DNA of 64,000 nucleotides. It comes from Tetmemena sp. SeJ-2015. Its lineage: Eukaryota > Ciliophora > Spirotrichea > Sporadotrichida > Oxytrichidae. Positions 1 through 64,000 of the stretch are shown here, piece after piece. The position numbers and the translations under genes are program-made. Under the pieces are notes generated by a model. The model saw only the letters and a program-made list of their open reading frames with translations. It was not told the DNA's origin and ran no database searches. The stretch is taken from assembly GCA_027382625.1 (NCBI GenBank), contig JAJKFJ010021500.1, positions 1 to 64,000 on the forward strand, read 5' to 3'. The first letter of the stretch is position 1. Each line of letters starts with the position of its first letter.

Positions 1-700
1 AAAAAACCCAATCCCCCCCTTCCCTAAGCCAAAGTCTTCGTTTTTTTCCCTTTCCCAAGAAAACGCATCTTTTAGTTATTTTTTATTTTCCCCTACCTGG
101 GAAAAACTTTTTTAATGTTATCGGGGCTTCTTGCCCAAAACTCTTTTTCCCATAAAAGGTGTTTTTGTGAACACAGTTTCTCAGCACATAAAAAACTTCA
201 CGCTATCCCTCTCACACCTGAGAGCTATTCGTAAATATTTTTCAGATTATTAAAAAAATGGCTTAGTGAAGTCTATAAACGCGCTTCACTCGATTCACAT
301 TTTTTGGACTTAATGCCATTTAAACCCTAGATGTTTGCTACAGTCTACGGGGGGATTTTAAAATTAAGGAAACTATTATGGAAGATCTTCGGGGCGCTAC
401 CCCAAAAATTTGAAGTGCGCTTAGTGGGGAAAAATTTGGGGGTCAATCAAATAATTAATTCCACCTTGAAACTTAGAATGCGATGGGGAAAAGGAAAATT
501 TCCAATCTAAAAATTTTCAAATCAAGGTATAGGGGGTGGAAATTTTCAAATTTTTAGGGATTTGAGTTGAAAAATTGGCTATTTTTTCTGAAAAGGGGTA
601 TTCCTTTCCTTAAGTAAAAATAAAAACTGAGAAGGAGGATAATGTAGTTTTTTTTTGATTAATTTCGCGTTTACTCGAAAAATTAAAAGTTTTAAATTTA
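1..700. other. Uninterpretable homopolymer-rich left end
   Basis: No gene can be supported here. The stretch is unusually rich in short runs of A, T, C and G, including several G5-G6 and C6 runs not seen elsewhere in the window. It lies directly upstream of the RBR gene fragment, whose first RING and N-terminus are missing, so it may hold an error-damaged 5' part of that gene or germline-limited DNA. Confidence 0.4.
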
Positions 701-752
701 AAAGAAATTATTATACACAATTTTTCATTTTTCTTATCTATTTTTTGGGGTT

Positions 753-1392
753 TTGAATCTAGAGAAGAGATTCTCAGGATGGGCCTCTGGAAACATAGCA
801 ATTTCTTTCTGTCCAAAGTGCAAAACCAAAGTTGAAAAGGTTGAGGGATGCAATCACATGACGTGCTACTTTTGCCGATTCCAATGGTGCTGGATATGTG
901 GAGGCACATATACTGACGATCACTATGTGCCTTTTAATCCCTTTGGCTGCGGAAATTAATAGTTCTCTAAAAAGCAAACATTAAATAAGTTTTAAATTGA
1001 ATTAAAGCATGCATGGTACATTCAGATTTGGATTAACCTAGGGTGGATGCTTCTTGCCAAAAAGATAAAATATTTTTCAATCTCTTGCCCTCTTAATTCT
1101 TCCACTAATTTTAATATTCACAGTTCCAGCAGTAATGACTGTCTTTGCATTTGAGCAATGCTTCAGGCATGTTAGAAGGAATTATTGTAGGAAACCCTAA
1201 TACTTTATTTTGGGAAGCATTATTGGACTGATAACCATCTCGATAGGTCTCGCCTTAAACATAATTTTGATTCCACTTTTCTTGGTATTTGGCTTGCCAG
1301 TAATAATTGGTATGATGATAAAAATAAGTATGTAGATAAATGTGAAGATTTATTTTAATGATCTATAAGAGATATAAGGTGCATAGAGATGA
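753..1392 (+). CDS. RBR-type E3 ubiquitin ligase, 3' part with RING2 and two membrane helices
   Basis: The first readable exon encodes the second RING of a RING-between-RING ubiquitin ligase: CPKC, then CNHMTC, then CYFC-type and WCWIC spacing, ending in an NPFGC motif typical of protist RBR proteins. The ligase would pass ubiquitin through a RING2 cysteine. A 37-nt GT-AG intron (989-1025) joins this to an exon with two strong hydrophobic segments (about 1100-1170 and 1205-1320), so the product is probably a tail-anchored or polytopic membrane ligase. It ends at TGA 1390-1392. TAA and TAG are read as Gln in both exons. The 5' end is missing: RING1 and IBR are not found upstream, and the true first codon here is probably after a TAG acceptor near 761. 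Confidence is high for the RING2 and moderate for the linkage of the helices. Confidence 0.75.
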
Positions 1393-1590
1393 AAAAATAT
1401 TTAAAATATAAAAAAACATTTTTAAAAATTTGAATAAAATTTTTTTTAAATTTAAAAACTCCAAAGTAAAATTTAAAAAAAATTTTTTTTCAATTTTAAT
1501 TAAAAATTAATTCACTGGGTAAGGTTAATCTATCATAGTTTGATAATTTATATTTAGATTCTTAAAATTTTTTGTGAGATTCTAATCTTT

Positions 1591-3060
1591 TCATTTATTC
1601 TTAGACAGCTCCTTCAAGGCTTTGCTAGTCTTAGCAATATCTTACTTAAGCTCTTGGAGATTATACTTGGTTACTTGGAATCTGCAGACGGGACACACTG
1701 AATTCTTTTTAAGCCACATCTCTATGCATGCTGTATGGAAGGAGTGGTTTTTGCAAGGAAGTGGGACCACTAGCATTTCAGGTTGGAATTCTTCTATTCC
1801 TGAAATTAAAAAGAGAATTATTAGATTTTTGAATAATTTCATTAGGCTATAAACATATAGCGCAAGTCAAGTCAGATTCCTCACTTGCTTGTTTATTAAG
1901 ATAAGGGTTTTAAGAGGAGCCATTCGATTAGTCTTTATCTAGTAATGGCGTCACATCAGCAGTGCTTTATTTCTCTGTCACTAGTCCCTCAAAATATATA
2001 TTTAAATTCATATTAATATAGATCAATGTTCCTTATATTCATTACAATTATTTAAATTTTTTGTATTCTCAAAAATGACTGGATGTATAGACTAATTATT
2101 CCTAGCTGTCTTGATATACCTCTTAAACTGTTTGAACTCTTCAAAGGGCACTTTATTCAGATTTTTTATTATTGCTCCATCTGCTGCGACTGTTCTATTC
2201 CTCAAGAACCTAGAGATGATGATGAGTGGGCCGCACAGAATGAAAATGATTGCGATGAGGATCATTTGAATCAAGCGCAGGTAGGATACTAGGATCACGT
2301 CAGCCAGCAGTTTCTGCATCGCCAATCCGCGACAGTCTGACTTTGGATGATAGAGCACGACATGTCCTACTATGCAGCAAATTAGCAGAGACCTAAATAA
2401 AGCAGAATGAGTTTAATTATTAATAGAGATATTTATTGGAAATATAGCGACTGTGGTTGATCTATCTTTTGCAATAAAATTTATTCTGGACTTACAGATC
2501 TATCATCAAGTAAAAAGTAGAAATTTAGTTGGATTTATAAATAAGTAAATTGTCTTGGTCATGGGTGTTAGATAATTCTTAAGTATCTCCCTCATCATGC
2601 CCAGATAGAATAAAATGGAACCCACTGAGAGCACGCCATAAATTATGAACCAAAACTTTATGGGCATGTTGCAGCTCTCTGTATTGAAAAATTCTATGTT
2701 CACTGATACTGCAACCTGAAAATGATTATTTTTAAAGACAGTAAAATAGATTACTCCTATAACATCGAAAATTAGGGTGAAGAAAATTCTCCAAAAGCTC
2801 TTGTTTTTTCTCTTCTGGGGTGACTTCGTCCGCGTAGTCGGGTATTCCCCGTGCTGCTCTATTTTGCGCTGCCTATAATCTTCTTTAATATATTGCAATT
2901 TTACTTGTTAAATTCGCTCTTCCAAAGACAGTGCCTGCTCGTTTTCATCTTTAAGCTCTTCTGACTGAATAAAGTATAAGTATATTTATTTTTTTGAATA
3001 TCATCTTCGTCAGTCTTTTTATCCTCATCCTCGTCTTACCTATAAATGATAAATAACTCA
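1591..3060 (-). CDS. Membrane RING-H2 E3 ubiquitin ligase, interrupted by four IESs
   Basis: The C-terminal RING-H2 finger is complete: CAIC (about 1865), then PLPCKNHSFH, CIEMWL and CPVC (about 1690-1780), followed by a short tail to TGA (1591-1593). Upstream are at least four hydrophobic helices (2110-2330 and 2550-2800) and an acidic, charged N-terminal stretch with DEDEDKK. This is the layout of a polytopic membrane ubiquitin ligase. The frame is restored only by removing inserts at 1792-1837, 1988-2067, 2394-2537 and 2966-2994, each with a direct repeat at its ends. The start codon is not settled; several frames are open near 3000-3100. The substrate cannot be told from sequence. Confidence 0.8.
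1988..2067. other. IES, 80 bp, pointer CTCAAAA
   Basis: CTCAAAA occurs at 1988-1994 and 2068-2074. Removal joins HPVIFE to GLVTEKQ in frame on the minus strand and links the helix region to the RING-H2 part of the gene. Confidence 0.8.
2394..2537. other. IES, 144 bp, pointer TAAATAA
   Basis: The 7-bp repeat TAAATAA occurs at 2394-2400 and 2538-2544. Deleting one copy and the DNA between joins ...TIYLF to RSLLICC in one frame inside a membrane helix region. The insert is AT-rich and carries in-frame TGA. It has no GT-AG ends at the right phase. Confidence 0.85.
2966..2994. other. IES, 29 bp, pointer TGAAT
   Basis: TGAAT occurs at 2966-2970 and 2995-2999. Removing 29 bp joins the acidic stretch KTDEDDI to QSEELKDENE in one frame. 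Confidence 0.75.
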
Positions 3061-4257
3061 TCTATTTTCTTGCTTGAGGTAATTTAATGCAGGAAATTCG
3101 TGGGAATAAATATGTGCCCTTATTTTACCTCATGCCAGCCAGTAGATTCCTCTCACTCCTTCTGTTCTAAATCGAGGTCTCGTACTATTGAGCAGTCTGC
3201 AAAATTTCAGCTCTTCCCCTCTCCGATATATCCACCAACATTAAATAATAACAATAATATTACAAATAATCTCTATTCAATTTCAGATCACTTATTCTTC
3301 TCTAATCATAATCGCTAATGTTTGTCAATGGATTTGAATTCGAGTAATGATTGTGTTGTGAGTGATGAAGTTTTTAAACTTTGAATTATGATGATTTATT
3401 AATACGGTAACCTCGGCTATAAAAATAGAGACCACTTATCTAAAAGCTATCTTCCCAAATAGTTTGAAGAGTTAACTCTTAAGACTGTGTCTCAAACATA
3501 AATATTTATTTATTTGCATTTGTAATTCTCACGTTTAAATTGATAGTGTGATGTTGTATATATCTTATGATTTGTTGAAGTTGCTTTGCTCTCTCTATAT
3601 CTTGTAAAAGGGTGCATTTGCAAATGAAGTGAGCAATTAGTTTGGGTGACTGGAATTAGGAGTCACTCTCAGAAAATTGAGCAGTTGCAGGCCTCGTTAA
3701 GTTCTTCCTTTCTCTTTCTCTCCAACTCTCTTTCTAGTATCTTAAAAAGCAAAAATGAATATTCATATAGATGTTTATTTAAAATAACTTCTGCTTTTTA
3801 TCTGAGAGATTTTCGTACTTATAAGATTCTACTTCTATTACATTTGATTTAGATGAGGAGTAGCTAAATAAAAATCTAATTTTTAAAAAGGTAATTATAA
3901 TAAACTATTTAGGCAATGAAATCGCATTCTACTTTCAATTAAAATAGGATACAAGCTGAGAGGCCCACCCATGATAAGAGTCAGTACAATCTCTCAGCTG
4001 TTCACAATTTCTTAATAGCTGACAACTCCCACTTCAACTCGCAACATTAGCTTTATTTATTTGTAAAAGCCCTACTAAGATCACTGGTTATAATAGCTCA
4101 GTGAAATCAAATTAAAAGATTTCCAACTTTCTGAATAAGTAAAATTTATGAAAAAAAAAAGTTTTTAAAATTATGATAAAGTATTATGGCTTATAATTTG
4201 CTATTATAATTAGACTTAGTCTTTTTACAATTTTAAACTTGTGATATATTTTAAGAA
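3061..4257. other. Intergenic or germline-limited AT-rich DNA
   Basis: No convincing coding sequence is visible between the divergent RING-H2 gene (-) and the IQ-like gene (+). Short open frames exist, but their composition is not protein-like. The first exons and promoters of both genes probably lie at the edges of this stretch. Confidence 0.4.
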
Positions 4258-7200
4258 ACCTGAATAAAACTCAGGAATAAACTATTTAGTCAAAGAAGAA
4301 AGAGCAACAGTTTCAGCATGCAATATCGCAAAATAGTTTTAACAATGCTTTTGACGCTACCAAGCACTCAATTCATACTGGAAACTGTTTATATCAAATA
4401 TTTTTAAACTCTGGCTATATTCAGGGAAGAGGCATTGAAAGCAACAATTCAAATGAAGGGAGAGGCATGAATTTCACTTAGAGCAAATATTTCAGTAGGA
4501 CTAACGGCTTAGAGTGAGGGTAGAAGTGACTCCACCAAATCCTTAGTCTAGAAATGGATATTTATTTGTGAACAAACGAGTTAGCTCCACCCTCAATAAA
4601 ACCAAGTAGCTTCATTCCTTCTCCTCAGGGCAGAAGTATAGATTTAAAGTACAGTCTGGATAGATCACTGCAAAAATATTATTATTGAGGTTATGAACTA
4701 AATATCTATGCGTTGTTTAATGAAGATAGAAATAAATAGATGCTTGAAGAGACAGAAGCATCTCTTATGTTCTCAAAGAATAGTAAAACATAGTTTAATT
4801 AAAAATTACAGATACCCTTTTATAGTTAAGTTTACCTTAGATTAGTCCTCTGAGAGTCCCTCTTAGATCATTAACTCAAGAACTATCTATATTTTAACTG
4901 CACTCAAAAGATTAAGGATGCCTCATTAGCCAACCAAACCTAAGTGATAAATATAAAGAGTCAGTTTTGAAGGCTAAATAATCCAAAAACCAATAAGAAT
5001 TTAATAATCAAGAATCGCAATCATACCTATCTATGAATAACACAGGCAATAATGAATTCAAGAAACTTTGCAAGAGACCAACTCCAAATTAGAGATCGCT
5101 AACTTTACTTATTTATAAACTCAAAACAGCTGAGGCCATTAACAACAGTTTTTATCTTCTTTAAAGTCTTGTCGAATTCATCCTCAAATTCTCCCACCAG
5201 AACCAAATCTTTGACTCGAAAAAGGATCATGCTTAAAAGAGGAGGCACAACTATGAACTAGCATAATAATCAAGAGTAAATGCTTGATTCAAGATGTGGA
5301 AGGCAGTACTCTGCTAAAGACTTAGGCTAGTGTGGAAATAGGCTCTCATCAAGCATTTCTAGACTAGTAAATGTCTACCATGAAAATAAAGCGAAGAGAC
5401 TCTATCATCTCCAAAAGAACCAACCAGAGCCAACTCTAAAAGAAAAACTATGGAGCACTACTCTTCTAAAATCAGGGCTAGTCATCCACTAAGAACGTAA
5501 TTGGCAGAGCATTTACACAGACCGCAAATAGAGAAGATTCCAAACTAAGATCTAGTAGCAAGGAGTTTATTATCAAATCTTAGAAGCTTAAAGAGTAGCA
5601 TAAGGCTTTTGCTTTTAACTCTTAACCAGTCTCATAAATAGTTAATGTAAGATGGAAAAAGCTCTTTCTATTTTCTTATGGGTTATATAGATTTCTGAAG
5701 AGCTCGCTTCTAATGCACTAAATACTACTTCTGAATGTCAAGAAATAGTTTAAAGCATCAATTCAAATGAGAGAAGGAATCTACATGACACAAGTTAACT
5801 TAGTGATGCTGGATTATACTTACTTAGAGAAAGTAGCAGCTTATCTCCATTTACCAGATAAAGAAATGAGCTTCTCGTAGATTAGCTACAACAGTTATCT
5901 GAAGCTCAGAAGTCTAAAGAGTAAGCTATAGATTTTTTAACACCAATTTTCTTGATAGCTTTAATGAGAAGAGCATGAAGGTAGATGCAAAAAGTCTTCT
6001 TCTAAAGACGAACAGAGACATCAAATCCTTGAATTACAAGCTTATGAGGATCATTTCAGCAGATGACTACCATACTTGCCTCTACCCTCAGAAGAATAAT
6101 GATATCGAGGTGATTGAGCAAACATACATCTACTGCAAAGTAAACGTGAGAGGATACTCTTCGCCAGTGAAATTTGTGATTCACTTCAAAGGCTTTGAGA
6201 CCTCAAACTTGAATAATACTTTTAATGGAGGTAGGCTATCTTTAGATTTATAATGTGAATTTTAGGACTGAACTCTAGATTTGCAAAGCTTCCAGACTTG
6301 AAAGTATATCTATCCTCTACCAGCAAAGAGCCCTCAGACACTCATAACGAGAAGCATTTTGTCAATGTATAATATATTCCTTAATTTCAACAATTTTATC
6401 TTAGTAAAGAAAGTTTGTGTTCCATGCTGCGGATAAAAATCGGAGATTTGAAAGGCAAGAGTACATCTATCTTTCATTCTTCAGTTTGGCCGGTTGCTCT
6501 TTAAATGTGAAGATCAGTTTTCCAACTGATGCCATTTCTAAAGAGCTCAACCCTAATAAGACTCAAAATGATAATATTCCCTAGCAGCAATTGCAAAATT
6601 AGATCACTCTGTAAGACTATTGACTTAATTTAGATCGATCTTTGTTTAGGGCATCAACTGGAGAAGGGAACGAAGATAATAATGAGGATTTGAATAAGAA
6701 TGGGGTAACTGTTAAACTTGTACAGAAGAAAGACATCCGAGAGATTGAGGAGTCACTCATGGAGACTTTAAAGAAATACAACCAGCAGAAATATGGGAGA
6801 GACTATGACGACAACTCGTACCTGGTCAACTATATAGATAAGAATAAGCAGATAGGGCCACACTGGAATCACTTTCATGCTATTAGGAGGTCTTTATTCA
6901 CGGCTGAAAGTGTTTAGAGCAAGCTCACACTTGCCTAACAGAGAAAGCAGTAACTTTATTATAAAAATACATTTTTATCTAACAAGAGGAGTAGAAGCGG
7001 ATAAGAGATTAGTTTGCTCTGGTCAAATGGGATGTCTATAGATAAAACCGAGATAAAATAAATGATCAATTTTTTATAAACCAATAGGTGATATAGTAAA
7101 AGATAGAAGAACTGTAGATGAAGAGGTTCTAAAAATTACAGTGGCTTGTCTTCGTTAAACAGAGCTAGATGCTGAAACTTATCTTTGATAAATTTGACTA

Positions 7201-8251
7201 GAGAAGACAAGAAATATTCAGGAAAAAATAGATGAAGCAGGCAGTCTCTTTCTTGGGAAGAGCGTTCAGGAGATTTTTCAAACGCTCAGGCAAAGACCTT
7301 AAAGAAAGAACCAAGTTTAAAGCTTATCACACAATCACATTTGCTTCCTCTCAAATGCATGAGGCTGTTCAATCAACCAAATAATACTTCTTATTAAGGA
7401 TGTACAAATTATTCATTATCATTAATTATTCGATTGAGGGAAGAGCACAGTAAAAACTCCTTGCATTTCTGGGAGACACAGCAGCAGTTTATGACTTGAA
7501 GTAGAAGTTCAGAGAATTCCACCAAAGAATCTAGCACATCCAAGCATCTTATAGAAGCCGCTGTCAGAGCATTATAATAATTACCATTTTATGTTTTGAA
7601 TCTGCATCTTGAATAGGAAGGCATTCCTAACACAGTACTTTGAAAAGGAGAGAAGTTTCCTGCTAAAGTTTTACATGCAAAAGAAGTCCTCCAAGAAGTC
7701 TAAACATCTCGTCAAGAAGCTACATTCAATATTCTCCTTACATATAGGATTTATTTATAAGCTAAACTTGCTGGACTCTGATGTGAGAGACTAAATCATA
7801 AAGGTCTACTTTGAGAAGTGTGTCTTTGACTACTCAGTCAAGTTCAACGAATGGCGGCTCAAGACACGTGGTGAAGAATCAGGAGTGGATATGGAAACCA
7901 TGTTCACAAGAAACTAGATGCTCCTCAAAAAGCAGTAGCTCTTGTTTAAAGACACAGACATAGTCGAGGAAGATCAAACTGCTCAAGCTTCAAAGCAATC
8001 CTCTAGCGGTAAAGATACTTACTCACTATTCTATATATTTGTATACCTCAGCTACAGGTTCACCAGCTAGAAAGTCTCAGTCCTTCACTTTTAAAGTGCA
8101 AAGGAGAGGCACTGCCCACAACAACAACGATCTTAAAAAGCTAAACTAGATGCCTCCTATTTTCTTATCCATGCCAACAAGAGAAGTTCTCCACAGACTT
8201 ATTATAAAAGCTACTTAGTTCAACTCAGTGCAAGAGATGAAAGAGCTCTGA
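4258..8251 (+). CDS. Large IQ-like protein with short introns (unidentified)
   Basis: A long product, roughly 1,100 residues, appears when GT-AG introns are removed. The clearest introns are 5921-5958, 6231-6265, 6367-6404, 6611-6649 and 8009-8051, all 35-43 nt and all phase-correct. Another intron of 36 nt near 4653-4688 removes an otherwise in-frame TGA. The N-terminal third is rich in S, N and Q. The middle has a compact domain with LYPQKNNDIEV and YIYLSFFSLAGC that I do not recognise. The C-terminal third is basic and helical with IQ-like motifs (RIQHIQASYRSRC near 7535-7565). A frame jump near 7567-7616 is best read as a small IES with a 2-bp pointer (AG). The stop is TGA 8249-8251. The 5' end is uncertain. 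Calmodulin binding is an inference. Confidence 0.7.
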
Positions 8252-8391: not shown

Positions 8392-9190
8392 TCAAAGATT
8401 CGAAAATTTGATTCCTCCATCTATTCTGAGGGTAACTCCTGAGAGGTATGTATTCTCGATTGCAGTTCTTACAAAGTGAGCGAACTCATCTGGAGTGCCT
8501 GATCTATTAAGGGCTGTATCGGCGTTGAGTCTCTTCTTTACGTTCTCTGACATTGCATGAGACAGAGGAGTCTCGAAGATACCTGGAGCAATGCCTACAA
8601 CTCTGATTCCATATCTTCCCAAGTCACGTGCCATTGGTAACACAATACCATTAATGGCTCCCTTAGTTGAAGAGTAAGCCACTTGACCTCTTTAGCCTTC
8701 CTCGGCAGCCACACTGCTCACGAACAAAATGAATACATGCTATTCTACTTCATTAAATGACTCCCTTTTCTCCCTTGTCGTTGATAGGCTTGTTCTTAGA
8801 CATAACAATGGAGCAGTACTTGGCCACGTACATGCTTCCATAGACATTGATTTCAGTAGTTCTCTTGAACAACTCCATGTCGATGAGTCCTCTTGAGCTG
8901 AGAGTGAGTGAAACTGTTGCGATTCCTGCACAAGCTAATGCGGCATGAATGGTTCCCCAAGTTGCTACAGTCTGATCTACTGCGGCCTTCACCTCCTACT
9001 CGTTAGTTACATCGCATCTTATGGTTATAATTCTCTCCTTCAGCTCATTCTTTATCAATTCGAGTCTCTCCTCATTAAAGTCAGCGATTGCTACTTTAGC
9101 TCCAAGTCCATGGATTTCTCTGACTGTGGCCTCTCCGAGTCCAGAGGCACCACCTGTGATGAAAAATACTGTATCTCCTGTGATTCTCAT
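8392..9190 (-). CDS. Short-chain dehydrogenase, HSD17B10-like
   Basis: A complete SDR of about 257 residues once one 28-bp IES is removed. The N-terminal cofactor motif TGGASGLG sits at residues 12-19. The acidic residue after the second strand (AIADFN) suggests an NAD-type site. An AGIA stretch follows the fourth strand. The catalytic block is SSVAAEEGQ then YSSTKGA, giving Ser and the YxxxK pair. The C-terminal IAPGIFETPL and the ending RIDGG resemble 17-beta-hydroxysteroid dehydrogenase 10 / short-chain 3-hydroxyacyl-CoA dehydrogenase, a mitochondrial enzyme of fatty-acid and isoleucine breakdown. No targeting peptide is obvious before Met 9190. One glutamine is encoded by TAG (near 9000). 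The stop is TGA 8392-8394. Confidence 0.88.
8727..8754. other. IES, 28 bp, pointer AAATGA
   Basis: AAATGA occurs at 8727-8732 and 8755-8760. Removing 28 bp gives EKGVI joined to LFVSSVAAEEG, exactly the spacing of HSD17B10-type enzymes. The alternative, a 22-nt GT-AG intron, would leave KGHVFILFVSS and fits the family less well. Confidence 0.88.
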
Positions 9191-11235: not shown

Positions 11236-12112
11236 TCACTGCTCGTCACCATCCTGCTTTTTGAGTTCTCCTCTCATCCTGGCCTGGATGATCTTCTTCT
11301 GCTCCTCCAGCGCCCTCTTGTTGATCTTCTCCACATACTCCCCGAAGGTGATCTCCTTCTCAGTGCCGTCCTGGTTCTTCTCCTCCTCACTAAGTTATAA
11401 ATTAGCACGAGCTATTTGCCTTACCCGAAGATGGCTTTGATTTCCTCATCCAGGCGCTCTCTGCCATAGCGCACGTAGAGGATCTGAAGAGTCTCCTCGA
11501 CTGTCACTCTGCCCTTGAAGGTCTTGTCGTACATGAGGAACTGCACCAAGTTGAATAGCTTGCGAGGCTCGAGTCCAGTCTCGTCTGAGATGCAGCGCTT
11601 GTACATAGTCTGGAACTCCTCCTTGCTTACGAAGCCGTCGAGGTCGTCGTCCACTTCCTGTGATCAAATTATTAGAGACGAGAGTTATAACGTACCCAGA
11701 TAATCAGCTTCACCTCAGCCTTTGAAGGCTTCTGTCCTAGATAGTTGAGGACCTTCATGATATCTCCCTCTCCAATTTTCTTCTTATGCTCCTCAGGCTT
11801 CTTAGGGTCTATATTTCAAGGTTAGGATATCTGTTGCTAAAGATTGATCATCATTATTTTAAATAGAGAGTAGCTGAGAATATTCGTTTCATAAAGCGTT
11901 GAAACTTCAAACTGCGGATGATTTTGCTGTGAGCTTACCCTTGTCAACTATAGTAGGAGTTAAGCGATTGAAGAATAGAAAGGGAGAGTATCTTATAATA
12001 TATTATTTGACTTACTGAGATAGGCGAAGACTCTGTCGAGGCACTCCTGCTCGATGGGCTTGATCTGCACTAGCTTTAACAGTTCAGCTGGAGACTGCTT
12101 TAATTTTTCCAT
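11236..12112 (-). CDS. EF-hand calcium-binding protein, possibly axonemal
   Basis: Starts at ATG 12112 and ends at TGA 11236-11238. The product is about 195 residues. It has one canonical EF-hand loop, DDDLDGFVSKEE, with acidic ligands at positions 1, 3, 5 and 12 and Gly at 6; the flanking regions look like degenerate EF-hands. The order is similar to calmodulin-like proteins of ciliary complexes such as dynein regulatory complex subunits, but no specific member can be assigned. Three or four GT-AG introns interrupt it, including a 9-nt exon (ttgacaagg) between two introns near 11935-11945; joining gives AYLIDKDPKKPEEH. The C-terminus is charged and helical (EQKKIIQARMRGELKK). Confidence 0.78.
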
Positions 12113-25559: not shown

Positions 25560-26525
25560 GGCCTAACTAGGACTGCCAATAGTCAAGGAATAAACCTTAT
25601 AAATATCATAACGGAATGAATCTAAATTTATTTGAAGTTAAGATATAAAGTTAGAGATTATATTCTGTTAATTATTTTATTTTTTATTAAATGCGTGTTG
25701 ACATAGTCTTGGAATATCTATAAATAGAACTTTAAGGATCTTCTTTTGAAAATAAAACTCTCAATCAAACAACTATTTATCATATTTGTGGAAATAACTT
25801 AAACTGAGAAAAGTATATTATCCTAGGTGAATTGTTTTAGAATATAATTTAAATCATGGTTAAGATAACAAAATAAAATTAAAATAATCATGATATGAGC
25901 TTTTATGAATTCACAAAAATGTTAAATATGTTAGAAAGGCAAATAACAAATGTGAGTTTTTTTATTTCAATTCTTAAATTTAAATTCGATGAGAGTGTAT
26001 TAGATAGAAAAATAAAAAAGCAAATATTTTATTTACCCTAACTCTATCAAAAAATATAAATAGACAGAAGCCTCAGCAAAGGCGAGAACCTTTCACACCA
26101 ATTTAATTTATGACTTATATTGAATAAGTTAATAGTCTATTACTCATCTTCATCACTAAAATATTAGCAATTTCTTATAAAGAACCATTTAAAACTTATC
26201 ATCAAGTCGCAAAGGAAGAGTCAGTGAATAAGTGTTTGAGATAATTTAAACCAAAATTATTTTTATTTGTTTTATTTTTTACTAATTCGACACTTTAAAT
26301 TAAAAAAAAATATGATAGATAAAAATAATTTCGCATCCTATTTCTGATATACTCTCTATTTTTATTGTAAAATGTATTTAATGCAAATATCATTTTATTG
26401 CACCCACGTTTATGGTGGTTTAATGGCCTTGTTTTAAATTATAGATAAACTTATATAACAAAGCAATATATTTTGTAAGTTTTCAAATAAGTTTATTATC
26501 AATTTTAATATCAATAATTAAAAGA
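25560..26525. other. AT-rich intergenic, probably germline-limited DNA
   Basis: About 960 bp of very AT-rich sequence between two divergently transcribed genes. No coding frame, tRNA-like fold or transposase motif is seen. It is the longest clearly empty stretch in the middle of the window. Confidence 0.5.
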
Positions 26526-35470: not shown

Positions 35471-35479
35471 AAATAAAGT

Positions 35480-45200: not shown

Positions 45201-48200
45201 TCAGACTCCAACATCTGCTTGAAGGTTTCAATATTCTGTTAGAGGAAGTCACTCATCTTATGTACTCTGAAAGTGGTCACATAATGCTGAGTCTTGAGAG
45301 CCACTACTGTGAACTTCTCGAATTCAAGCACGTCGTAGAACTTTGACTTTAGCTTATGAAGCTTCAAAGACTCGTACTCGATTCCGAAAGCTACTTCTTT
45401 TCTTGCCTCTTCAATCTTGAGGTCATTTCTATCTTGCAGCATGTTGAAGTAGATAGGATCAATGTTGAAGTCGTCCTCTGTGATTTGGATCCATTACTCT
45501 GTGCCTGAATTCCTGACTCTTAGCTCTTTAAAGCCTCTTCTAAGTTTTTCAATCCTCATCTTGACTTCATCTTTCTTCTCTTCAGCCAATTTAACTCTGT
45601 GGTCTTCCTCAGTTCTGAGCTTTGCCTGTTAAAATCATTAAAAGTGTATGCATGTTAGATTGAGTACTGAGAAGGGTCCAAGATATCCTCGTTGATATCC
45701 TCTGTGAGCTTGAGTGCCTTGGCTAGGTAAGCGTGGTCGATGGCGTCCTTCTCCTAATCAAGGTCAGTAAAGTAGGGAGGAGTTGAGTCAAAGAATTCTT
45801 TCATTTTCTCTTGTCTGATTTCTTCTCTCTGAGACTCAGCCATGAAGTCAACACCCTCAACTCCTTCCAAGGGATTAAAGGTTGACTCTCTCTTCATGTT
45901 GTCCTTGTCAATCTAATGGATGTAAATGAGTCCATCTTCACCAGTGGATATCATCATCTTCTCATCCTTGTCAAGCTTAGCACTCGTTATTCTGCCGTTG
46001 TGTCCATCGTGCATCAATAAATTATTCACTAACTCATCTTAATGACGAGGAATTTGTCAAGGTTGTCTAGTATTCTCAATTGAATCTCTCCATTTTCAAA
46101 GCCCATTATCAGGAATTGCTCCGAGGGACTTCTATCAATGTACTTGCAGGAAGTTGTCTTAGAGATTTCATAAGCCTTGAGTGGTCTTGATTAGTTGAAG
46201 TCGCACAGGTAAAAATAGCCAGAGAAGAGTCCAGTAGAGGACACAAGGAACTTTCCAGTGCCATCGTTTAAGTAATTACAAGCCAAAATTGGCTCTGGGT
46301 CCCAGTCCTCCTCTTGCTCCTCTTCTTCCTTAGGAAGTTCTCCTCTGAGTCTCATTCTCCTCTTCTTTTCTTCTTCCTCCTCGTCCTTCTTTTGGTTCTT
46401 CTTCATCTGGAACTCCATCATCCTAATTCTCCACTCTCTGATTCTCACTTGATCAGTCAGGAAGGTCTCTGTGTTTACAATGTCCTAAGCTCTAGGTCTC
46501 TCTATCTCGTAGACATATCCGTTGGAGCATCCAACAAGCAGGTTGTTGCTGTCCGTATCCCATCTCATATCATTGATGCGCACTGTCTCCTTCTTCTCCT
46601 CATCTTACTCTTGCTGTTGGTTGGCTGGGATGATCACCATGCAAAGAGGCTCATACTTTTGGAGGTTGTCGTGACCTGAGATCAAGAAGAAGAAAATTTC
46701 TCCATCCTAAGAGGCAGTTGCTAGCATGGTGTTGTCTGGAGAGTACTTCACTCGCACTACTGCAGAGTCATGAGCTTTGAAAGCCTTCAGAATTTAAAAG
46801 TCATGTGAGCCAAGCATCAATATTCTCACTATACCGTTGTCGAAACCTGCAGCTACTACCTTGCCTTGATTTGCTTCAGCATAAGGAAGAATATCTAGTG
46901 AAGTACCTGCACCCTTAAATTTCTTGGAGTAGAACTCTCTATCCTTTGCGATATCCCAGAGCTTTGCCTGTCCATCAGAGCCTAGTGAGATAGCTGCATT
47001 TTGATCCTAGCAAATGACGAGGTCTGAAATTTTCCCAGAGTGGAAATCAAACTCCATACAAATAATACATAGAAATGCTTGATCTCAGTGACAGTCATGT
47101 GCTCGTCCATCATCATCTTCCAGATCTTTCCCTTTCCATCTTGAATAAGCCAGTGGTCACTGCCCTTAGTCATGTTAACAATGTATGCTGGTTCGCCAGT
47201 GCCTCCGTTGGTGTCATCTCTGATCAACTTTTCCTTAATAGGTGCGACTACTACTTCAATAGTTTCATCTGCCTCTGCGTTATCGATCTCGTGGAACTTC
47301 CACCATTTTATATAACCGTCGGCTCCTGCTGTGATGAAGTGGTCGTGCTCCAACTCCAAATAAACCACCTCAATCATGCCTTTAAAATAATTATGGAGAG
47401 GAGTGAAGTGAACTCCTGGGGCGGATCTTGCAAGCACCAAGTGGGCCTTGACCAAGTTACCCTCCCAAAGCACCAAAGTACCATAGTCACTTCCACTCAC
47501 TATCTTGCCGTCTGGCAACTCTGCGAAGCCAGTGACATCAGACAGCTCCAGCTGACCAAACTTGCCTATCTCGCCTTGGAGCTTTAAACCTGTGAAGGTC
47601 TGAGCCATCCTCCAGAATCTAATGTGACCACTTCCACTTGTGAACAAGATATATTTAAGCACTATTTACGATACTTAATCTAATTTGAAGTCAAAATTAA
47701 ACATAATACTTTCTTACTTTAGTATTTTAATCCTATTTATTTTATTTTGAGAAAAGAGAATTATTTTTTTTTAAAACTGACCTCCTAAGTCGGAGTACAA
47801 TTTCAGTTTTTATCTATTTTTAAATAACACTTGTAATAATTATTGCAATTTTGTTTTTTGTAGTGATATTTCAGTCAGCTCCTTAAACTTCCCTTATAAT
47901 AATTTAATGATTAAAAGATTAAAAATACTGAGATAATAAACTTATGCAAAAGCAATTCATACTAAAATAAAATCTCCACTAGAGTTTTATAATATTATAG
48001 ATATCATCTGTGAAGGGAGAGAAGCTGACTCTGTAGACGTCCATTGAGAAGGCCTTAGCTTTGAGAATGACTCTCTGGGCAAGCCAGTCCCAAACTGTGA
48101 TTGTAAAGTCAGGGCTTCCTCCCACACTAGCCAGTTTAGTACCTGACACTGAGAACTCCACGTGAGCGTACATCTGCTCAGTTCCCCTTCTCAGAATTCT

Positions 48201-52958: not shown

Positions 52959-54250
52959 TCATCTTCTGCCCTTGGCATTTTAAGGTTATCTTGTGTTTGA
53001 AGCCATCCTTCTTGGGGGCTTCCTATTAGATCTGTAGTCTTCTTCGTCGCTAGGATCTTCAGATCTATCACTATAGTCATCCTTTTATCCATAAAACAGT
53101 TTAAGAATAGCAATTTTGATTTATAAGGAAATTTAATCTTCATAAAGAGAATTATAATATATCTTTTGACCATTAATCTTAGGAATTTATTTTATTGTAA
53201 GTTTATTAACCCTTAACTCATTTATTTCAATATAAAAACCTAATTTTTTAAAGGAAGCATCATTATCTGAATAAACTTATGTGATATTTCTTTTGCATAT
53301 TAGTGTCTTTTTTAGCAACCATTTGTTATTGTTTCGGATTATGACTAGGATTCTTTGATAGCTATGGTTTGGGCTATGGCTTGACATTATCCTAGTTCCA
53401 CTCACTCTTTTAATATGACTTCTTCTTCTAATGGAGTTGCTGCTGTCGGAAGTTTCTCTCCTTGGCCATGCATTCCTCAATCTTTTTAAGGTGAGAGTTG
53501 GGAGGGGACAACCAGTACTATATTTTGGTGCAAGCGAAAGTCAGTCCTACTGCTAATGCCAAAATCCCAACTGGGCCAACACTCATTATTATAAAATTTA
53601 AAGCATTATAATGATAAAGCTAGTCCTGGGTATCTGATACTTCTCAGTCTCAGTGTAGTTAAAGCCAATCATTCTCTTCAAAGAGTACTGCTAGTTTTAG
53701 TTAGTGGTGTAAAACCTGTACGAAAATCTAAAATTGGCTGCGTAGATATTGGCAGTATCTGGCTTCACAGTTATCCAAACCTGCTAAACGATTCCACTAA
53801 GTCGGGTGTTGAAACGATAGGTTGTGTTGAAATTTGGATTTACAGTCACGTTGCTCGCTGTATACAGATTTGAGCCAGTGGTTATTGTGAAGGTGCTAGC
53901 TAGGTAATAGTAAACATAAACCTCAACGTAATCGAAGAGGGAGGCGGAGGTTAAGTCTACCTAGAGTTAGAAATAGCACACATGATTGCTGCTTTCATAA
54001 ACTTAGGTGCTCTTTACTTCTTGGAACTTAATTGTCGGAGTCAGTTAGGAAGAACCTGCTATCAAAACATAAAAATATTATATATGCGAGTCAAACGGGA
54101 AATTACTCAAAAATTAAAAATGACTATACTTCCTAACACCGTTTAGGTATCGATGTAGTCACTAATATCAGTAGCAATAACAAAATTTAGCTCCATCATC
54201 GCAAAAATAATGAGAGTTCCAGTGCGCACTATACTCTATCATTTGAAAGC
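52959..54250 (-). CDS. Probable type I membrane protein
   Basis: A hydrophobic start near 54200-54250 (possible signal peptide ending LNFVIATD) leads to an ectodomain rich in beta-type sequence with many possible N-glycosylation sites: YEVYVYYYLASTFTITTGSN-like strands, TASNVTVNPNFNTTYRF and NIYAANFRFSYRFYTTN (53700-53960). One transmembrane helix (GILALAVGLTFACT, about 53530-53575) precedes a Lys/Gln-rich cytoplasmic tail and an acidic end YSDRSEDPSDEEDYRS to TGA 52959-52961. The parts are separated by AT-rich gaps near 53100-53280 and 53580-53640 that are probably IESs. The family is unknown. Confidence 0.55.
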
Positions 54251-54321
54251 TGATGATGAAAAGTTAGAAGTTGCAGATTTTCTTCAGAGATTTTTAAGCT
54301 TCAGCACATAAATTATTTTAT

Positions 54322-55441
54322 TGATCCTCACACTCTTCCCCACTTAGTGCTAATCAGTTTGGAATACTTAACGAAGATCTTCCATAGGTAGTGTCCTTAT
54401 TTCTCAAGATCTAGCAACATCTATCGTTGAAATGGAATAACTTCCAAAACTGTGAATGCGAGTAATGTCAACGACAGTTCGAATATCCTCAGAGCCTCAA
54501 GCGGCACATCAAGGAAGTCCACTCAGACAAACCTAAGATCTATATGAAGCATTAGAAAGTGGACGGTCGCTATCCTTGCTCAACTTGTGAGCAGACATTC
54601 TCTCACTCTGCTTTCCTCAAGAAACACATGGAGAAGAAGCACATGGCTGAGTTCGTAATTGAGGATAAAGAAACTTTAAAGATGGTGCCAGCTAAGAGGC
54701 AAGCACGATACCTTGACAAGGTTCAACTAAAGAGGAAGCAAGAGGAGAAGAAGAGGAAGATTGAGTTCATGAATCAGAAGCCTTAGTGTATGGTGTCAGT
54801 AAAGTTTCAGCTAGCTCAAAGCAAGACTCCATGCGTGAGAGTTGTAACTTTGGAGGAGTGTGTTCAAAATTACCTCCACCTTGCTGATTCGAAGCGAAGA
54901 GACACCATCATACAAGAAGAGTATGCTTACAAGATCTTCCCTTACGAATACCTTGTAAAGAAGGAAGAGAGGGTCTTGAGTTCGCGAACGAACTGACAGT
55001 GTTTGAGAGAAGTGAGGGACAAAAACTTGAGCTGTACGTTCTTCATCTTGCTGGTGTTCTTATCGATCATGATTACATCGCCATTCGCCTCCTAAATGGA
55101 GATCACACTAAGAGAATTTCTCAGCACGAGGCGCAACAAGTACTAGCTTACTGCTATTCTCACTGACCTCGTTAGAGGAGTGATGGAGTTGCATGAGTTG
55201 GGATTCGAAGAGATCTCAAGCCAGAGAACATCATGATAACTTTGAACCAGTCAGAGCAATGTCTTAGACTTCAACAGAGTTGTAAGAAGAGAAAACATTG
55301 AGGAAGCATCGGTGCAAGGAACTGCAGGCTACTTCCCATAGAGACAGACCTTGCTCGACAGTTCAGTGCAGTGGGACATTTGGTCTATAGTTGCAATCAT
55401 ACTTGAATGCAAATATGAAACCAGAGGAATACTACTAGTGT
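54322..55441 (+). pseudogene. Zinc-finger/kinase ORF resembling the TBE transposon 57-kDa protein, decayed
   Basis: The first 675 bp are open with TAA/TAG as Gln and encode two C2H2 zinc fingers: CEQCQRQFEYPQSLKRHIKEVH and CSTCEQTFSHSAFLKKHMEK (listed here as separate motifs), then a basic linker and EEYAYKIFPYEYLVKKEER. After a TGA the frame shifts and a degenerate kinase domain follows: GVMELHELG, RRDLKPENIM, VLDFNRVV and WDIWSIVAIILE, in at least three frames. TBE elements of Oxytricha are described as carrying a 42-kDa transposase, a 22-kDa ORF and a 57-kDa zinc-finger/kinase ORF, and this order matches. No transposase or terminal C4A4 repeats were found nearby, so this is a truncated relic or an unrelated kinase pseudogene. 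Confidence 0.55.
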
Positions 55442-55589
55442 GAAAGTGAAGATGATGCAATATAATTCAAAGACATTGTAAGATAGACAAGGTATCAGAA
55501 CCTTTGAAAAAGTTAGTGAGATAATGATAAAGGGGCAACCTTCGAAACCAACACTCGGTTTATTTTAGATATGACAAGCCAGGGCAAAA

Positions 55590-55885
55590 CAGCAAATAGG
55601 AGAACCGGGCGTTGCCCTCACGCACGGGAAATGATCAGGAATCCCTGCCGCTAAAAACCCTCCCTGTGGGGGGCGTGAGCTCCCCGGTCACCGGGGCCCT
55701 GGGCGCTTGCCGGGGGGTTCAGTGGGACTGGTAAAGAGAGCGTAAACCTGCCTCCGTGTCTGATTCAGGGTGCCCCTTAGCGGTAGTCATGGGGTGGCCC
55801 GTTGTCAGTTTATTTACCCCCTCGACTAGGTTCGATCTGTTTGGAATGCTCTAGTAGCACGTAGTCGCCGTAGTTTGTTTTGTAA
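55590..55885. other. GC-rich island of unknown origin
   Basis: About 300 bp stand out by high GC and long C/G runs in otherwise AT-rich DNA. It contains a perfect 7-bp inverted repeat with a one-base centre (CCCCGGT-C-ACCGGGG near 55692). No long open frame, tRNA fold or known repeat is recognised. It lies just downstream of the decayed zinc-finger/kinase ORF. Confidence 0.6.
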
Positions 55886-56049
55886 AACCACTCTTATTTT
55901 ATTTCCCTTTTTTTCTTTTTTTTCCGAGTCAGCTCCATCAGCAACTCCATTTTCCTATAAGTAACAAAGTAATAATCAAGCAACCCTTTTAAACCAAACT
56001 CATTAAATTTGAGTAGAGGAAACAGGTATAAAATTCAGAGAATAAGAGA

Positions 56050-56602
56050 CAGACGTCAAGGTCACCTTCCTAGAAGACTTTAGATTGCCTGTTTAGGGTT
56101 AAAATTTAGCATAATTATTATTTTTAATTATCTCATCTTTTTACGGGTGATTAAATATCTACTCCACAATTAGTAGGATTCTTTGAAGGACACAGACTAT
56201 ACTTTAATTGATTTGTTGATTGATGTTATAAAGTAATCTGAGCAAACTGATCCCAAAGCAAGATTTAAAACTTAAATTCAGTTGAAGATTTTATTAAACA
56301 TTTTATTGATTGTTATAGCACTTTGTATTCGCAATTGTGGTGCTGCAGCAATAGTACACGCCTGCGTTATTGCAGTACCTGGCAGCAGTAGCAGAGAAGT
56401 AATCAAAGCACTCTGTAAGGCAATTATCAGTTTAATATATCCCAATGCTGCATTTGTGAGGTCAGCTGCGTTGAAAGCAGCTCATGTGGTTTCAATGCTC
56501 ATTAGCAGCACCACAAGCAAAGAAGGGAGGAATCTACTATTAGGGAGCGGGCTCACTATCTTACTTACAAAAATAGATTTTAATATTTTCATTTCAAGAT
56601 AA
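56050..56602 (+). CDS. Orphan helical-repeat (ARM/HEAT-like) ORF
   Basis: An open frame encodes DYTLIDLLIDVIKQSEQTDP, a hydrophobic helix, then GAAAIVHACVIAVPG, EVIKALCKAIISLIYPNAAF and VRSAALKAAHVVSMLISSTT. The alternating amphipathic helices look like one to two ARM/HEAT repeats. No start codon, full domain or stop-defined gene is clear; the frame stays open toward the SF3B2 gene through AT-rich DNA. It may be a separate gene fragment or a macronuclear-destined segment whose partners lie elsewhere. Confidence 0.4.
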
Positions 56603-56663: not shown

Positions 56664-58986
56664 ATGAAGAAGCTCTTCAAGCGAAAACGACGAGTAAGCA
56701 TTATAACTAAGCAGAGTGGATTTTGTTTGCAGCCCTTTTAGATTTATTGTAGAACAGAAAACAAAAGAAGAAGGAGAAGCAGGATCAGCTGCAGTAGCAG
56801 ATAGATGACAAGGTTAACTTCCTCAAGAGTGTCATCCCCTCTCAGATTTCTCAACTCTCTCACTTCCAAGACCTGGGCTTTAGCTCAACAGAGGGTGATG
56901 TAGAGATGAGAGAGGAGGGGAGCGAGAGTGGAAGGAGAATGAGTGGAGACTAGTCTGCAACCAGTAATTAAACCCATTAAAATTAACTAAATAATGGTAA
57001 GATTGACTTGAGCAACATCGAGTTCGAGTATGTCAACATGGACGAAGGCGTTCTTGCTCCTGGCAGGGTAAGTTAGATCCTACTTTAATCTATATAGCAT
57101 GTGGCTGAGTTCAAGCACATCTTTGAGCACTTCACAACGCCTGTTAACCAAGGTGGCGCACTCAAGAAGAAGGAGGGTGAGCTCGTTTAAAAGCATCTCG
57201 AAGAAAAGGATGCCTTCACAAAGACCACTGAGGCTCAGGAAGACGAGGAGAAGAAGGAGAAACAGATGTCTAAGAAGCAGAGGAAACTGCTGGCAAGGAT
57301 GAAGGTGTTTGACCTCAAGATGAAGATCAGACGCCCTGACTTGGTTGAGGCTTGGGATGTCACTTCCAAGGACCCACTACTCCTGCATGGACATGAAGAT
57401 GGTGCGCAACTCAGTCCCAGTCCCAAGACACTGGTCCCAGAAAAGAAGATACCTCCAGTACAAAAGAGGCATCCACAAACCACCTTTCAAGCTGCCAGAC
57501 TTCATTGAGCAGACTGGCATAGGAAGAGTGAGGGAGCAAGCCAGTGATAAGCACAAGACGCTCAAGCAGAAGATGAGGGAGAGAATGCAGCCTAAGATGG
57601 GAAAGATCGACATAGACTATCAAGTGCTCCATGATGCTTTCTTCAAGCATCAAAAGAAACCTAAACTCACTCCCCATGGAGATCTCTTCTACGAGGGAAA
57701 GGAATACGAAATAAGGATGAGAGGCTACAAGCCAGGTAGGCTCACTCCTGAGTTGCGACACGCACTCGGCATCCCAGAAAACTCACCCCCTCCCTGGTTG
57801 ATTATTACTAAAATATAGTACTAGCAAAGATATCATATGGACATTAATGCAACAATAACATGCAGAGATATGGACCTCCTCCAGCTTACCCTAATCTTCG
57901 TATACCTGGAGTAAATGCCCCTATTCCTGAAACTATTGATGATAATTCAATTATAAAGGATAATTGGTTATAAGAATAAGTAGATGCCTTTAAATTCATG
58001 GGAGTATTAATTATTTAACAATTACTTGCGCTTGGCCATTGAGTAAATTTCAATTAAAGTAGCTTAATTATTTTAATCAATGATTATTGATGAGCTCGAT
58101 ATTCTTATTCAATTTAAAAATAATTCTTTTTATTGATCCAGTAATCCTTTAAAGTAAAATGCTGTGCTATATTCTAGTACTGACTTATAAACAATGGAAT
58201 AAATGCTACCTCAACTGATTCTTATTTTATCCCATTAAGCTTTACTTATTTATTGATCCCATCATTGATTTATTTCTCAGCTATATTACATACGGTTTTG
58301 GAAGACTGTTCACTGACGAAAGAGGCAGCACTGTCTACGCTGATTGCCATGGCTTGAACAAGGCTGTCTACCAAAAGCGCTAGAACAGAAAGCCTTATTG
58401 GGGTGCAATCAAAGAGACTGTCGAGGAAGAAGACGACCTCGAGGGAGATGAGGACATGGACGAGGAGGAAGAAGATGAAGAGCCTGAGTTTGAAGGCATC
58501 GGAAGGGACACTCTCGGTATGCTGGATGATGAAGTGGAGCTGGCTATGGGTAACTTCAAGCAGCAGGAAGAAAAGACTGACTTTGCTTCTCTCAAGGCGG
58601 GTATCTCTTCTCTCATTCAGAACTCCAACTTGATCTCACAACCAGAGGTATAATATAAATATATGAACATATATTTATAATAAGGTGGAGATATCTAAGA
58701 AGCCATTGCATCCTAAGATGCCTCCTCCCCCTCCCATGGAGGCAAGACCACTCTACGAAGTAGTGGAGGAGGTCAAGAACAAACAAGGAGACAACTCAGA
58801 CATTTTCCAATCAGGCCACGGCTACAAACTGCCCTTCTTCAGGAGCTGCAACTGGCAGCCAGTCTGTGGAGGCAGAAGTTAAACATCTCGAAGGTAGTGG
58901 CCGACGGAAAGAGCGCAGCAGAGAAGGAGGAGGAGAGAAAGAGGAAGGAGAAGGAAAAGAAGGACAAGTACAAGGTCAAGTTCTGA
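56664..58986 (+). CDS. SF3B2: SF3B2 (SAP145/Cus1) homologue, U2 snRNP splicing factor
   Basis: SF3B2 anchors SF3B in U2 snRNP near the branch point. The conserved core is unmistakable: RRPDLVEAWDVTSKDP, NSVPVPRHW, YLQYKRGIHKPPFKLPDF, MGKIDIDYQVLHDAFF and GDLFYEGKEYEIR (57320-57720), then ENSPPPWLI, the PSP-type RYGPPPAYPNLRIPGVNAPI (57865-57930) and, after a 350-bp IES, TYGFGRLFTDERGSTVY and an acidic segment. The C-terminus EKKDKYKVKF ends at TGA 58984-58986. An intron lies at 58648-58684; a second, smaller IES (about 60 bp, 2-bp repeat) falls after PPWLI. A one-base insertion near 57386 splits the core, and one or two slips lie near 58830. The start is near 56664. Confidence 0.93.
57934..58283. 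other. IES, 350 bp, pointer TATT
   Basis: TATT occurs at 57934-57937 and 58284-58287. Removal joins GVNAPIPET to ITYGFGRLFTDERG inside the SF3B2 PSP region, where orthologues have no gap. The insert is AT-rich with TGA in all frames. Confidence 0.88.
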
Positions 58987-61966: not shown

Positions 61967-62148
61967 AAGGAGAAATGTATTCTCTTCATAATGGATTGAT
62001 TATCGAGTCACAAAACTCCAGAAGGGTATCATTAATTTATTATCTACAAATATAAATATCATCATCATCAATGAGAATGTTAAAAGGCTCCCACCATTAA
62101 TATATTATTATTATTTAAGTTTATTAAGCGGAATAACTATTGCTCTCA

Positions 62149-63358
62149 TGTACGACTATTGCTTCCTTTAAATATCTCTTAGTACTTATAACTTATTCTA
62201 CTTTTGTGTTTGCTGTGCAACTCCCAGATAGAAATAGGCAACACACTCGCTACTTTGAACAGCAATAAACTATAGAGCAGTCCAAACACTCTCACTCAAC
62301 CCTCTTTACTGCAATAAGGATCATTATTTAAGCAAAATTTAGCAAAGATAACAGAAAACCAGCTGCTATCCACTCTCAAATAAAATAGTATAAGTAAGAT
62401 ATAACAAGGAGTATTTTAATAGAGGAAGCTAACTCTTTTGTTTATAGTGTCCAAGAACCCAATAAACCAAAGATAACTTGCATAGCAGGACTTACACACC
62501 AGTTGCATAACTTGCCTCAGTAATAACTTTAAGTTTTGCTACCAAGACTCTGATGAGTATTGCTGCGACCCTGAAGACTCAGACTCACAGTTTTGCAATA
62601 CCAGAAATCAACAAAGACTTAAAATGCTCTGACTAATTGTAAGCTTGTTTATTTAATCATCATTCTTTCCTAGTTATAATGGGTAAGGGGAGCAGATTTA
62701 AGATGTGCTAGTCCAACCAAACTCAGTGCAAAAGTTCTCTTGATACTTTTGTGAATGATAGAAATGGAGTTAATGGACAGAGAGACAGCACTTTGGAAAT
62801 TTAAGTTGATGATGACGCTTAGTGGAGAAGTGTGGAGATCTCTCTTCAAGAGAATATAGCTTGCTCTTACTAGTTCAAAGCTGAAAATGCTACGAATAAC
62901 CTGTTCGAGATCAAAATTGACAAGATAAAAAACGCAGTGATTGGACTGCAATTCTACTCTACGTTTACAGACTCCGTAATTGACTTGGGCTTGATTGATC
63001 CCTCTAACTGCAAAAGTATAAGACATTCTCATTAAATAGATGATTATTATAAATTATATAGTATGCTATTTCTATTGCGTGAGAAGTGAGGAGGGATACA
63101 TTTTATTTGTGTTAGATGATGCTGCATACGTGGATATGCAGCTCATCCCTCTTGACTCCACCAAGCATTCTTAACTTTCAGTTTCTTATCGCTTGATAAA
63201 CGCCGAGGAGAGATAATTTAAAATACGCTCACCAATATATAATGAAGTTATTTTCTTGATAATTCATATATGAGACTTTGGTAATGATGGGAGCAGGATT
63301 TGTTTTGATTTCAATTCTGTTGGTAATACTTTTTAGAGCGCTAAAAATATCAGAATGA
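62149..63358 (+). CDS. Type I membrane protein with cysteine-rich ectodomain
   Basis: An N-terminal signal sequence (FKYLLVLITYSTFVFA) is followed by a polar stretch, a cysteine-rich module ITCLSNNFKFCYQDSDEYCC, a second extracellular block (WRSVEISLQENIACSYQFKA, NAVIGLQFYSTFTDSVIDLG) and one transmembrane helix (GAGFVLISILLVILFRAL) near the TGA at 63356-63358. Three IESs (62473-62506, 62624-62702, 63014-63083) are removed to keep one frame. The cysteine module resembles modules common in ciliate surface proteins. The exact start codon is not resolved; ATG near 62149 is in another frame. Confidence 0.65.
62473..62506. other. IES, 34 bp, pointer ATAACTTGC
   Basis: A 9-bp exact repeat, ATAACTTGC, occurs at 62473-62481 and 62507-62515. 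Removal joins EPNKPKITC to LSNNFKFCYQD in frame, the first cysteine of the module being encoded by the pointer itself. Confidence 0.9.
62624..62702. other. IES, 79 bp, pointer ATG
   Basis: ATG occurs at 62624-62626 and 62703-62705. Removal joins RNQQRLKM to CQSNQTQCKSSLD in one frame. Confidence 0.65.
63014..63083. other. IES, 70 bp, pointer AAGT
   Basis: AAGT occurs at 63014-63017 and 63084-63087. Removal joins LIDPSNCKS to EEGYILFVLDDAAYV in frame. The insert is AT-rich. Confidence 0.8.
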
Positions 63359-63466
63359 CTGAGTGAGTGAGTTTGACTACTTCTACTTTATTTACTAATT
63401 TATTTTGTCTAATGACTTGTTAGTGAATGAATGAGTGAACGAGGATAAGAATAAAATAATATTATA

Positions 63467-64000
63467 ATGAAGTCCCTAGGCGGATAAAAAGAACTGGACT
63501 AACTTAAGACAAGTTCCCACTTGGATGGGGGCTAGCCAAATTCTTCAAGGAAATCAGCAGTTGATTAGCAGCTCGAGATGGCTCCAGTGTCTTTTGGAAT
63601 AGACTGGTTCTCTTTCTAAACACAGATAAGGAAGATGGTGATTGAGTTGATAGAGCCAACAGTTTCGAAGGCGCATGAGGACCATGTGACTGTTGCATCG
63701 CTCTCTCAAAATTATGAGACTCTCAAAAAGAGATAGGAGGAGTTTGAGTTCAGCACTGTCAAAGTGCTCGCTCGAACTGCTTCTCAAGATGATCTTGGAA
63801 AAGGCCGTCTCGAATTTGTAAGATATTGGAATGTTTGTTTGCGATTACCTTTAGGAGAAAATAAGGATGAAAATGGAGGAAAAGCTATTTGGCGAGATAC
63901 AAAAATTGCAATCAAACTAGGAATTCATCAGAGACAAGATCTCAAACTTCCTTCAAGAGGCTCATACTTTTGTAAGAACTAATTTCTCTTTATCAATTCG
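63467..64000 (+). CDS. Partial gene at the right edge, helical N-terminus
   Basis: ATG 63467 opens a frame with MKSLGGQKELDQLKTS, then SFGIDWFSFQTQIRKMVIEL, HEDHVTVASLSQNYETLKKR and STVKVLARTASQDDLGKG. A GT after LEF (about 63818) may start an intron, since the following sequence is less protein-like. The gene runs off the window. No family recognised. Confidence 0.55.

Follow-up and report, generated by a model that had tools for sequence, protein, structure and literature searches.

Pointer-bounded IESs interrupt coding segments in a 64-kb stretch of Tetmemena sp. germline DNA

A stretch of 64,000 nucleotides from Tetmemena sp. (Oxytrichidae), comprising bases 1-64000 of contig C2579 in an assembly of 146.2 Mb and 5,213 contigs and referred to here as the window, contains genes whose coding blocks are cut by non-coding inserts. 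The question raised by this locus is whether the inserts are IESs of unrearranged germline DNA, introns that are removed only from RNA, or the product of assembly errors and pseudogene decay. A first-pass annotation had claimed that the window is germline DNA with unexcised IESs, and this claim is borne out by direct repeats at the insert edges, by homologues that read through the joins, by introns without such repeats, and by TBE-like transposon pieces. The window is almost certainly unrearranged micronuclear (germline) DNA of Tetmemena sp., with MDSs split by AT-rich IESs that are bounded by pointers. MDS/IES organisation of the Tetmemena germline is already known biology, published with MDS annotation in 2022 (PMC9797194, as far as the sections used here describe it).

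In the mechanism proposed for such DNA, gene segments (MDSs) are interrupted by AT-rich IESs, each lying between two copies of a pointer that is specific to its site. As a new macronucleus develops following sex, the IES and one copy of the pointer would be removed, the MDSs joined, and telomeres added, with spliceosomal introns being taken out later, at the RNA level. Excision during macronuclear development would involve TBE transposases and RNA guides, as suggested by published work on Oxytricha and Tetmemena (PMC12242761, in the portion drawn on here).

Inserts in six genes and the proteins read across their joins

Frame-restoring inserts, observed directly together with their pointers, occur at 13 sites in six genes, which encode an HSD17B10-like SDR, an EF-hand (calmodulin-like) protein, an AGC kinase, an ankyrin protein, CFAP44 and SF3B2. 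The insert lengths range from 10 to 352 nt. Removal of each insert together with one copy of its repeat restores the frame, and homologue alignments across joins show the protein restored. The aligned blocks of the CFAP44, SF3B2 and EF-hand genes are all in order. CFAP44, on the minus strand, is the most heavily interrupted: its homologues (P0002 and P0001) align in blocks with sharp breaks and run straight on across the joins. Five IESs in this gene have lengths fixed by a homologue: 352 nt at 47653-48004 (pointer ATATCT), 23 nt at 46016-46038 (GATG), 26 nt at 45632-45657 (TAACA), 26 nt at 44139-44164 (CAGACT), where the joined product KYRLESDLKN is identical to P0001, and 34 nt at 43966-43999 (ATTCT). 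Two further inserts, whose pointers were chosen by eye, are a probable micro-IES of 11 nt at 47052-47062 (TTTG) and a probable IES of 52 nt at 44402-44453 (AGCTTAG); GT-AG readings, of 17 nt for the first and 43 nt for the second, would likewise keep the frame. SF3B2, on the plus strand, carries an IES of 53 nt at 57803-57855, whose pointer (TA, 2 bp) is not above chance on its own, and an IES of 350 nt at 57934-58283 (TATT), whose length is fixed by a homologue.

The remaining four genes have one insert each. In the SDR gene (9190-8392, minus strand), an IES of 28 nt at 8733-8760 has the pointer TCATTT; 4xgn aligns without a gap across the join, and the insert is also present, with both repeat copies, in the allelic contig C1458. 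The EF-hand gene (12112-11236, minus strand) contains a probable IES of 189 nt at 11816-12004 (AATATA), whose edges are not pinned by a homologue and for which a long GT-AG reading exists. The two best matches of this gene by E-value, each covering 89% of the query, are from Stylonychia lemnae (89% identity; located on a 1,221-base contig, an indirect hint of gene-sized macronuclear chromosomes) and entry 403372200 (90% identity), which is presumably from Oxytricha trifallax. In the AGC kinase gene, a probable IES of 19 nt lies in the 3' portion, at 24126-24144 on the minus strand (GAGA, chosen by eye). The ankyrin gene, on the plus strand, has a probable IES of only 10 nt at 28979-28988 (TATC), which each of the three contigs covering this locus carries; the usual spacing of ankyrin repeats fits once this insert is removed.

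An alternative explanation for the broken frames would be errors in the assembly or the decay of pseudogenes. SF3B2 does have three one-base frame breaks, at 57386, about 58830 and about 58893, which from their sequence look like assembly errors, and the window has 31 indel events of its own in 14 kb relative to two allelic contigs (C4516 and C752), 30 of them of 1-3 nt. However, random errors do not produce AT-rich, repeat-bounded inserts of up to 352 nt, and for both the SDR and the ankyrin gene, further contigs of the locus carry the insert as well. Errors or pseudogene decay are therefore a highly improbable source of the frame breaks, and the inserts are best read as IESs.

The first-pass annotation had counted at least nine interrupted genes. 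Its claim stands for the six genes described above, which were rechecked, but could not be carried through for the insert edges in a RING-H2 gene, for FOP, where the support consists of a Pfam domain plus a codon-usage model, or for Skp1, for which motif scans of the window found no match. In the RING-H2 coding region (1690-1873, minus strand), the frame is broken within the RING, and a candidate insert of 61 nt at 1781-1841 with the pointer TGAAAT fits the window; the second copy of this repeat differs in C1458, where neighbouring changes look synonymous, and the pointer was not accepted. A pointer that is perfect in the window and yet not conserved in the allele indicates that pointers chosen by eye can mislead. 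An alternative repeat, TTTA, lies near the RING-H2 frame break. A codon-usage gene model with pointers and introns proposed several joins that homologues do not support, and was kept for leads only.

The homologues read through with TAA and TAG translated as glutamine, which is also the code of Oxytricha trifallax. With these assignments (code 6), the window has 151 frames that reach 150 aa or more, as compared to 23 with the Euplotid code, which was rejected. Frames grow longer in any case when two of the stops are translated as amino acids, and the code assignment therefore rests on the homologue alignments.

Edge repeats compared with chance and with introns

The edge repeats were compared with chance using, as the test statistic, the longest repeat no more than 6 bases from each join, and as the null, random positions with matching lengths. 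The tested set consisted of the eight inserts whose length is fixed by a homologue: the seven such joins in CFAP44 and SF3B2, and the SDR join, included on the strength of the gap-free alignment of 4xgn to the joined product at this point. The other five inserts (EF-hand, kinase, ankyrin, and the TTTG and AGCTTAG inserts of CFAP44) had been chosen by eye for frame and repeat, and were left outside the test. For the eight inserts, the repeat lengths sum to 38, whereas the null has a mean of 15.6, and none of 200,000 resamples reached the observed sum. Pointers of at least 4 bp are found at seven of the eight sites, the exception being the 2-bp TA of SF3B2 at 57803, which is no better than chance. 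As the first-pass annotation had claimed, the repeats differ from site to site, all 13 being distinct, and the inserts are AT-rich, with a GC content of 0.19-0.26 in the eight tested inserts as against 0.285-0.435 in 2-kb windows of the sequence. The organisation differs from the TA-bounded IESs of the Paramecium and Euplotes type in that 12 of the 13 pointers are longer than TA and different from it.

The agreement between pointers and homologues was also considered join by join. The cut that best fits the homologue coincides with the pointer cut at ATATCT (352 nt), GATG (23 nt), TAACA (26 nt), CAGACT (26 nt) and the TA of SF3B2 (53 nt). At TAACA, an alternative cut with a 1-bp repeat scores equally, as do alternative cuts with 2- and 1-bp repeats at CAGACT. 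At the 34-nt ATTCT join of CFAP44, a repeat-less cut one base away fits the homologue better than the pointer cut, and at the 350-nt TATT join of SF3B2 the better fit is a repeat-less cut five bases further on.

Six GT-AG introns from the same genes served as an internal control. In CFAP44, the intron is 53 nt long (42981-43033, minus strand); in SF3B2, a putative intron of 30 nt (57068-57097, plus strand), which is in frame if kept and is not fixed by homology, is accompanied by one of 37 nt (58648-58684, plus strand); the EF-hand gene contributes introns of 38 nt (11658-11695) and 35 nt (11390-11424), both on the minus strand and the only two fixed residue by residue, by the homologue P0242; and the AGC kinase gene has one of 35 nt (24301-24335, minus strand). 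By the same measure, the repeats of these introns sum to 11, against 11.7 expected, with two of the six coordinates off by one or two bases, which is within tolerance. This direct contrast upholds the earlier claim that GT-AG introns are distinct from the inserts. The claim that such introns occur in the same genes also holds, although the stated size range of 35-41 nt does not, the introns used here measuring 30-53 nt.

These data bear on the possibility that the inserts are nothing but spliceosomal introns, of ordinary or very small size, and leave the RNA but never the DNA. GT-AG introns do occur alongside the inserts, and three of the 13 inserts (TTTG and AGCTTAG in CFAP44, and AATATA in the EF-hand gene) can themselves be read as GT-AG. 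Among the equivalent cuts examined, however, none of the eight homologue-fixed inserts has a GT-AG cut. Seven of these eight have pointers of at least 4 bp while the introns stay at the null level, the inserts span 10 to 352 nt, and one insert, at 28031, is absent from the DNA itself. An intronic origin is thus hardly credible, and excision from DNA is the reading followed here. Rearranging-ciliate germline DNA can accordingly be recognised from its sequence, and a pointer test that uses introns as an internal control lends support to this identification without a somatic genome.

A junction without its insert

Evidence that a segment of this kind can be missing from DNA came from allelic contigs. 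Two of them, C4516 and C752, both cover window positions 24566-38604, and both carry, after position 28030, a 35-nt segment flanked by AAGA. The window lacks this segment exactly and keeps a single AAGA (28031-28034, plus strand), so that an excised junction is seen directly in DNA and, in addition to the site-specific direct repeats at the edges of eight inserts, retention of one copy is seen at 28031. A 4-bp repeat at this site would on its own be expected by chance at about 2.4%. Ten distinct indels of at least 8 nt separate the window from four allelic contigs; the 35-nt one is the longest, the other nine being of 8-15 nt. A repeat of more than 3 bp accompanies two of the ten, namely the AAGA insert and a 9-nt in-frame gain of a repeat unit. 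The eight others, with repeats of 0-3 bp, look like ordinary indels and were rejected as IESs.

Across 24566-38604, the window is mosaic, combining two haplotypes between which about 5.5% of aligned sites differ: over the 14-kb alignment, 496 substitution sites are C752-specific, 266 are C4516-specific and 21 are found in the window only. Between 27504 and 28650, the window is identical to C752 except for the 35-nt segment and for 8 bp that differ at 28489, and this match indicates that one haplotype is seen both with and without the insert. Most likely, the somatic form entered the long-read contig when reads were corrected or the contig was polished, given that short reads were used for correcting the long ones in the published pipeline. 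In the part of the methods drawn on here, SPAdes contigs were combined with PacBio contigs, the long reads being corrected with short reads and the result polished (PMC9797194). The same source states that long reads aligning better to the macronuclear genome were discarded, which speaks somewhat against somatic uptake. In this comparison, as in that of C1953 and C4995 below, which contig is the long-read one was judged from contig size.

Alternatively, the difference at 28031 could be a true germline polymorphism, with the IES gone from one allele, and not a somatic junction that entered the assembly. Contigs of one assembly do differ by exactly the insert, reads closer to the macronuclear genome were thrown out by the pipeline, as far as its published description goes, and a second contig pair shows a similar difference, in the same direction. 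C1953 (234,701 bases; L063, about 4496-4517) is without a 135-nt segment carried by C4995 (10,921 bases; L067); the segment is bounded by a 14-bp repeat, of which the single copy in C1953 has one mismatch. Set against this are the mosaic structure of the window, its 21 private substitutions and its C752 haplotype around 28031, together with short-read correction and polishing steps (PMC9797194, in the same partial account) that could import macronuclear sequence. A germline polymorphism is for these reasons unlikely, and somatic uptake during assembly is preferred. It is doubtful, too, that germline alleles with precise loss of an IES, brought about for instance through recombination with somatic DNA, exist at 28031 and perhaps in C1953 as compared to C4995; if they did, the alleles of a single culture would allow the gain and loss of IESs to be followed.

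The 135-nt segment of C4995 contains GTAAA-type repeats. Of the two queries used in the search for further allelic pairs, one listed no partner and the other gave C1953 and C4995. Searches of the assembly for insert-free copies listed allelic contigs, paralogues and repeats and no insert-free somatic copy; such searches are lossy, and their negative outcome counts for little, one of them having missed C4516 and C752 although these match much of its query. Since at two places a contig is without an insert that another contig has, the absence of an IES from a single contig calls for caution.

Transposons and comparison with published germline genomes

Germline-type transposons were also observed directly. 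A TBE-like fragment at 24-769 has the right end GGGGTTTTG at 747-755, followed by AAT, which fits ANT, at 756-758. The element is a high-copy repeat: a query with bases 1-8200 gave 1288 first-look candidates, of which the best 40 were scored. Among the right ends of eight other copies, six have a GGGGTTTT-type end, and in each of them, just as at 24-769, ANT comes next; two of these six are without the last G, the end in L044 is degenerate, and L038 has none. The ANT flank was thus seen at the right side of TBE-like copies, the right sides being those examined. The 85-bp terminal repeat of Tetmemena TBEs, as given in Table 3 of PMC4724952 (the part of that paper used), has at least 41 matches in the assembly, at least 40 of them at 100% over 85 bases, among the best 40 of 1107 candidates. 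Together with the right ends, these matches identify a telomere-like terminal repeat of TBE type. More pieces of the 24-769 family lie at 54074-56128, where they are overlapped by a C2H2 zinc-finger ORF (54325-54996).

DDE_3 transposases have at least 150 matches in the assembly (the best 150 of 921 candidates). Matches were also found in three of 14 control genomes, indicating that DDE_3 alone is no proof of germline DNA. An exact C4A4 16-mer starts within the first ten bases of 11 of the 5,213 contigs, and at least one contig (C334) ends with it; such a small number of telomere-like ends indicates that the assembly is not one of telomere-capped nanochromosomes.

Feng et al. 2022 (PMC9797194; JAJKFJ000000000) describe the Tetmemena micronuclear genome, in the sections considered, as having nonscrambled MDS-IES genes, pointers that are typically 2-20 bp long, TBE transposons and a hybrid short- and long-read assembly, all as here. 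That assembly has 237 Mb in 28,446 contigs with a GC content of 32.17%, according to the same sections. The one analysed here (146 Mb, 5,213 contigs, those seen being longer than 10 kb) is probably a length-filtered part of it. Pointers, IES excision and TBE transposons are likewise shared with the Oxytricha trifallax germline as portrayed in the portion of PMC12242761 used; in contrast to that species, the present assembly carries the Tetmemena-type TBE terminal repeat. With TBEs as characterised in the relevant part of PMC4724952, the elements share a C4A4-type terminus, an ANT flank on the right side, a C2H2 zinc-finger ORF and high copy number, and DDE_3 transposases are likewise found in the assembly. 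A TBE comprises ORFs of 42, 22 and 57 kD in a fixed order, whereas the window has fragments and the C2H2 ORF, with the DDE_3 matches lying elsewhere.

The contig starts inside the TBE-like element (1-769), which adjoins coding sequence with an IBR domain, an arrangement suggesting that the element may lie in an IES of that gene. In the copy at 54074-56128, about 390 bp separate two parts that directly adjoin each other in the remaining aligned copies.
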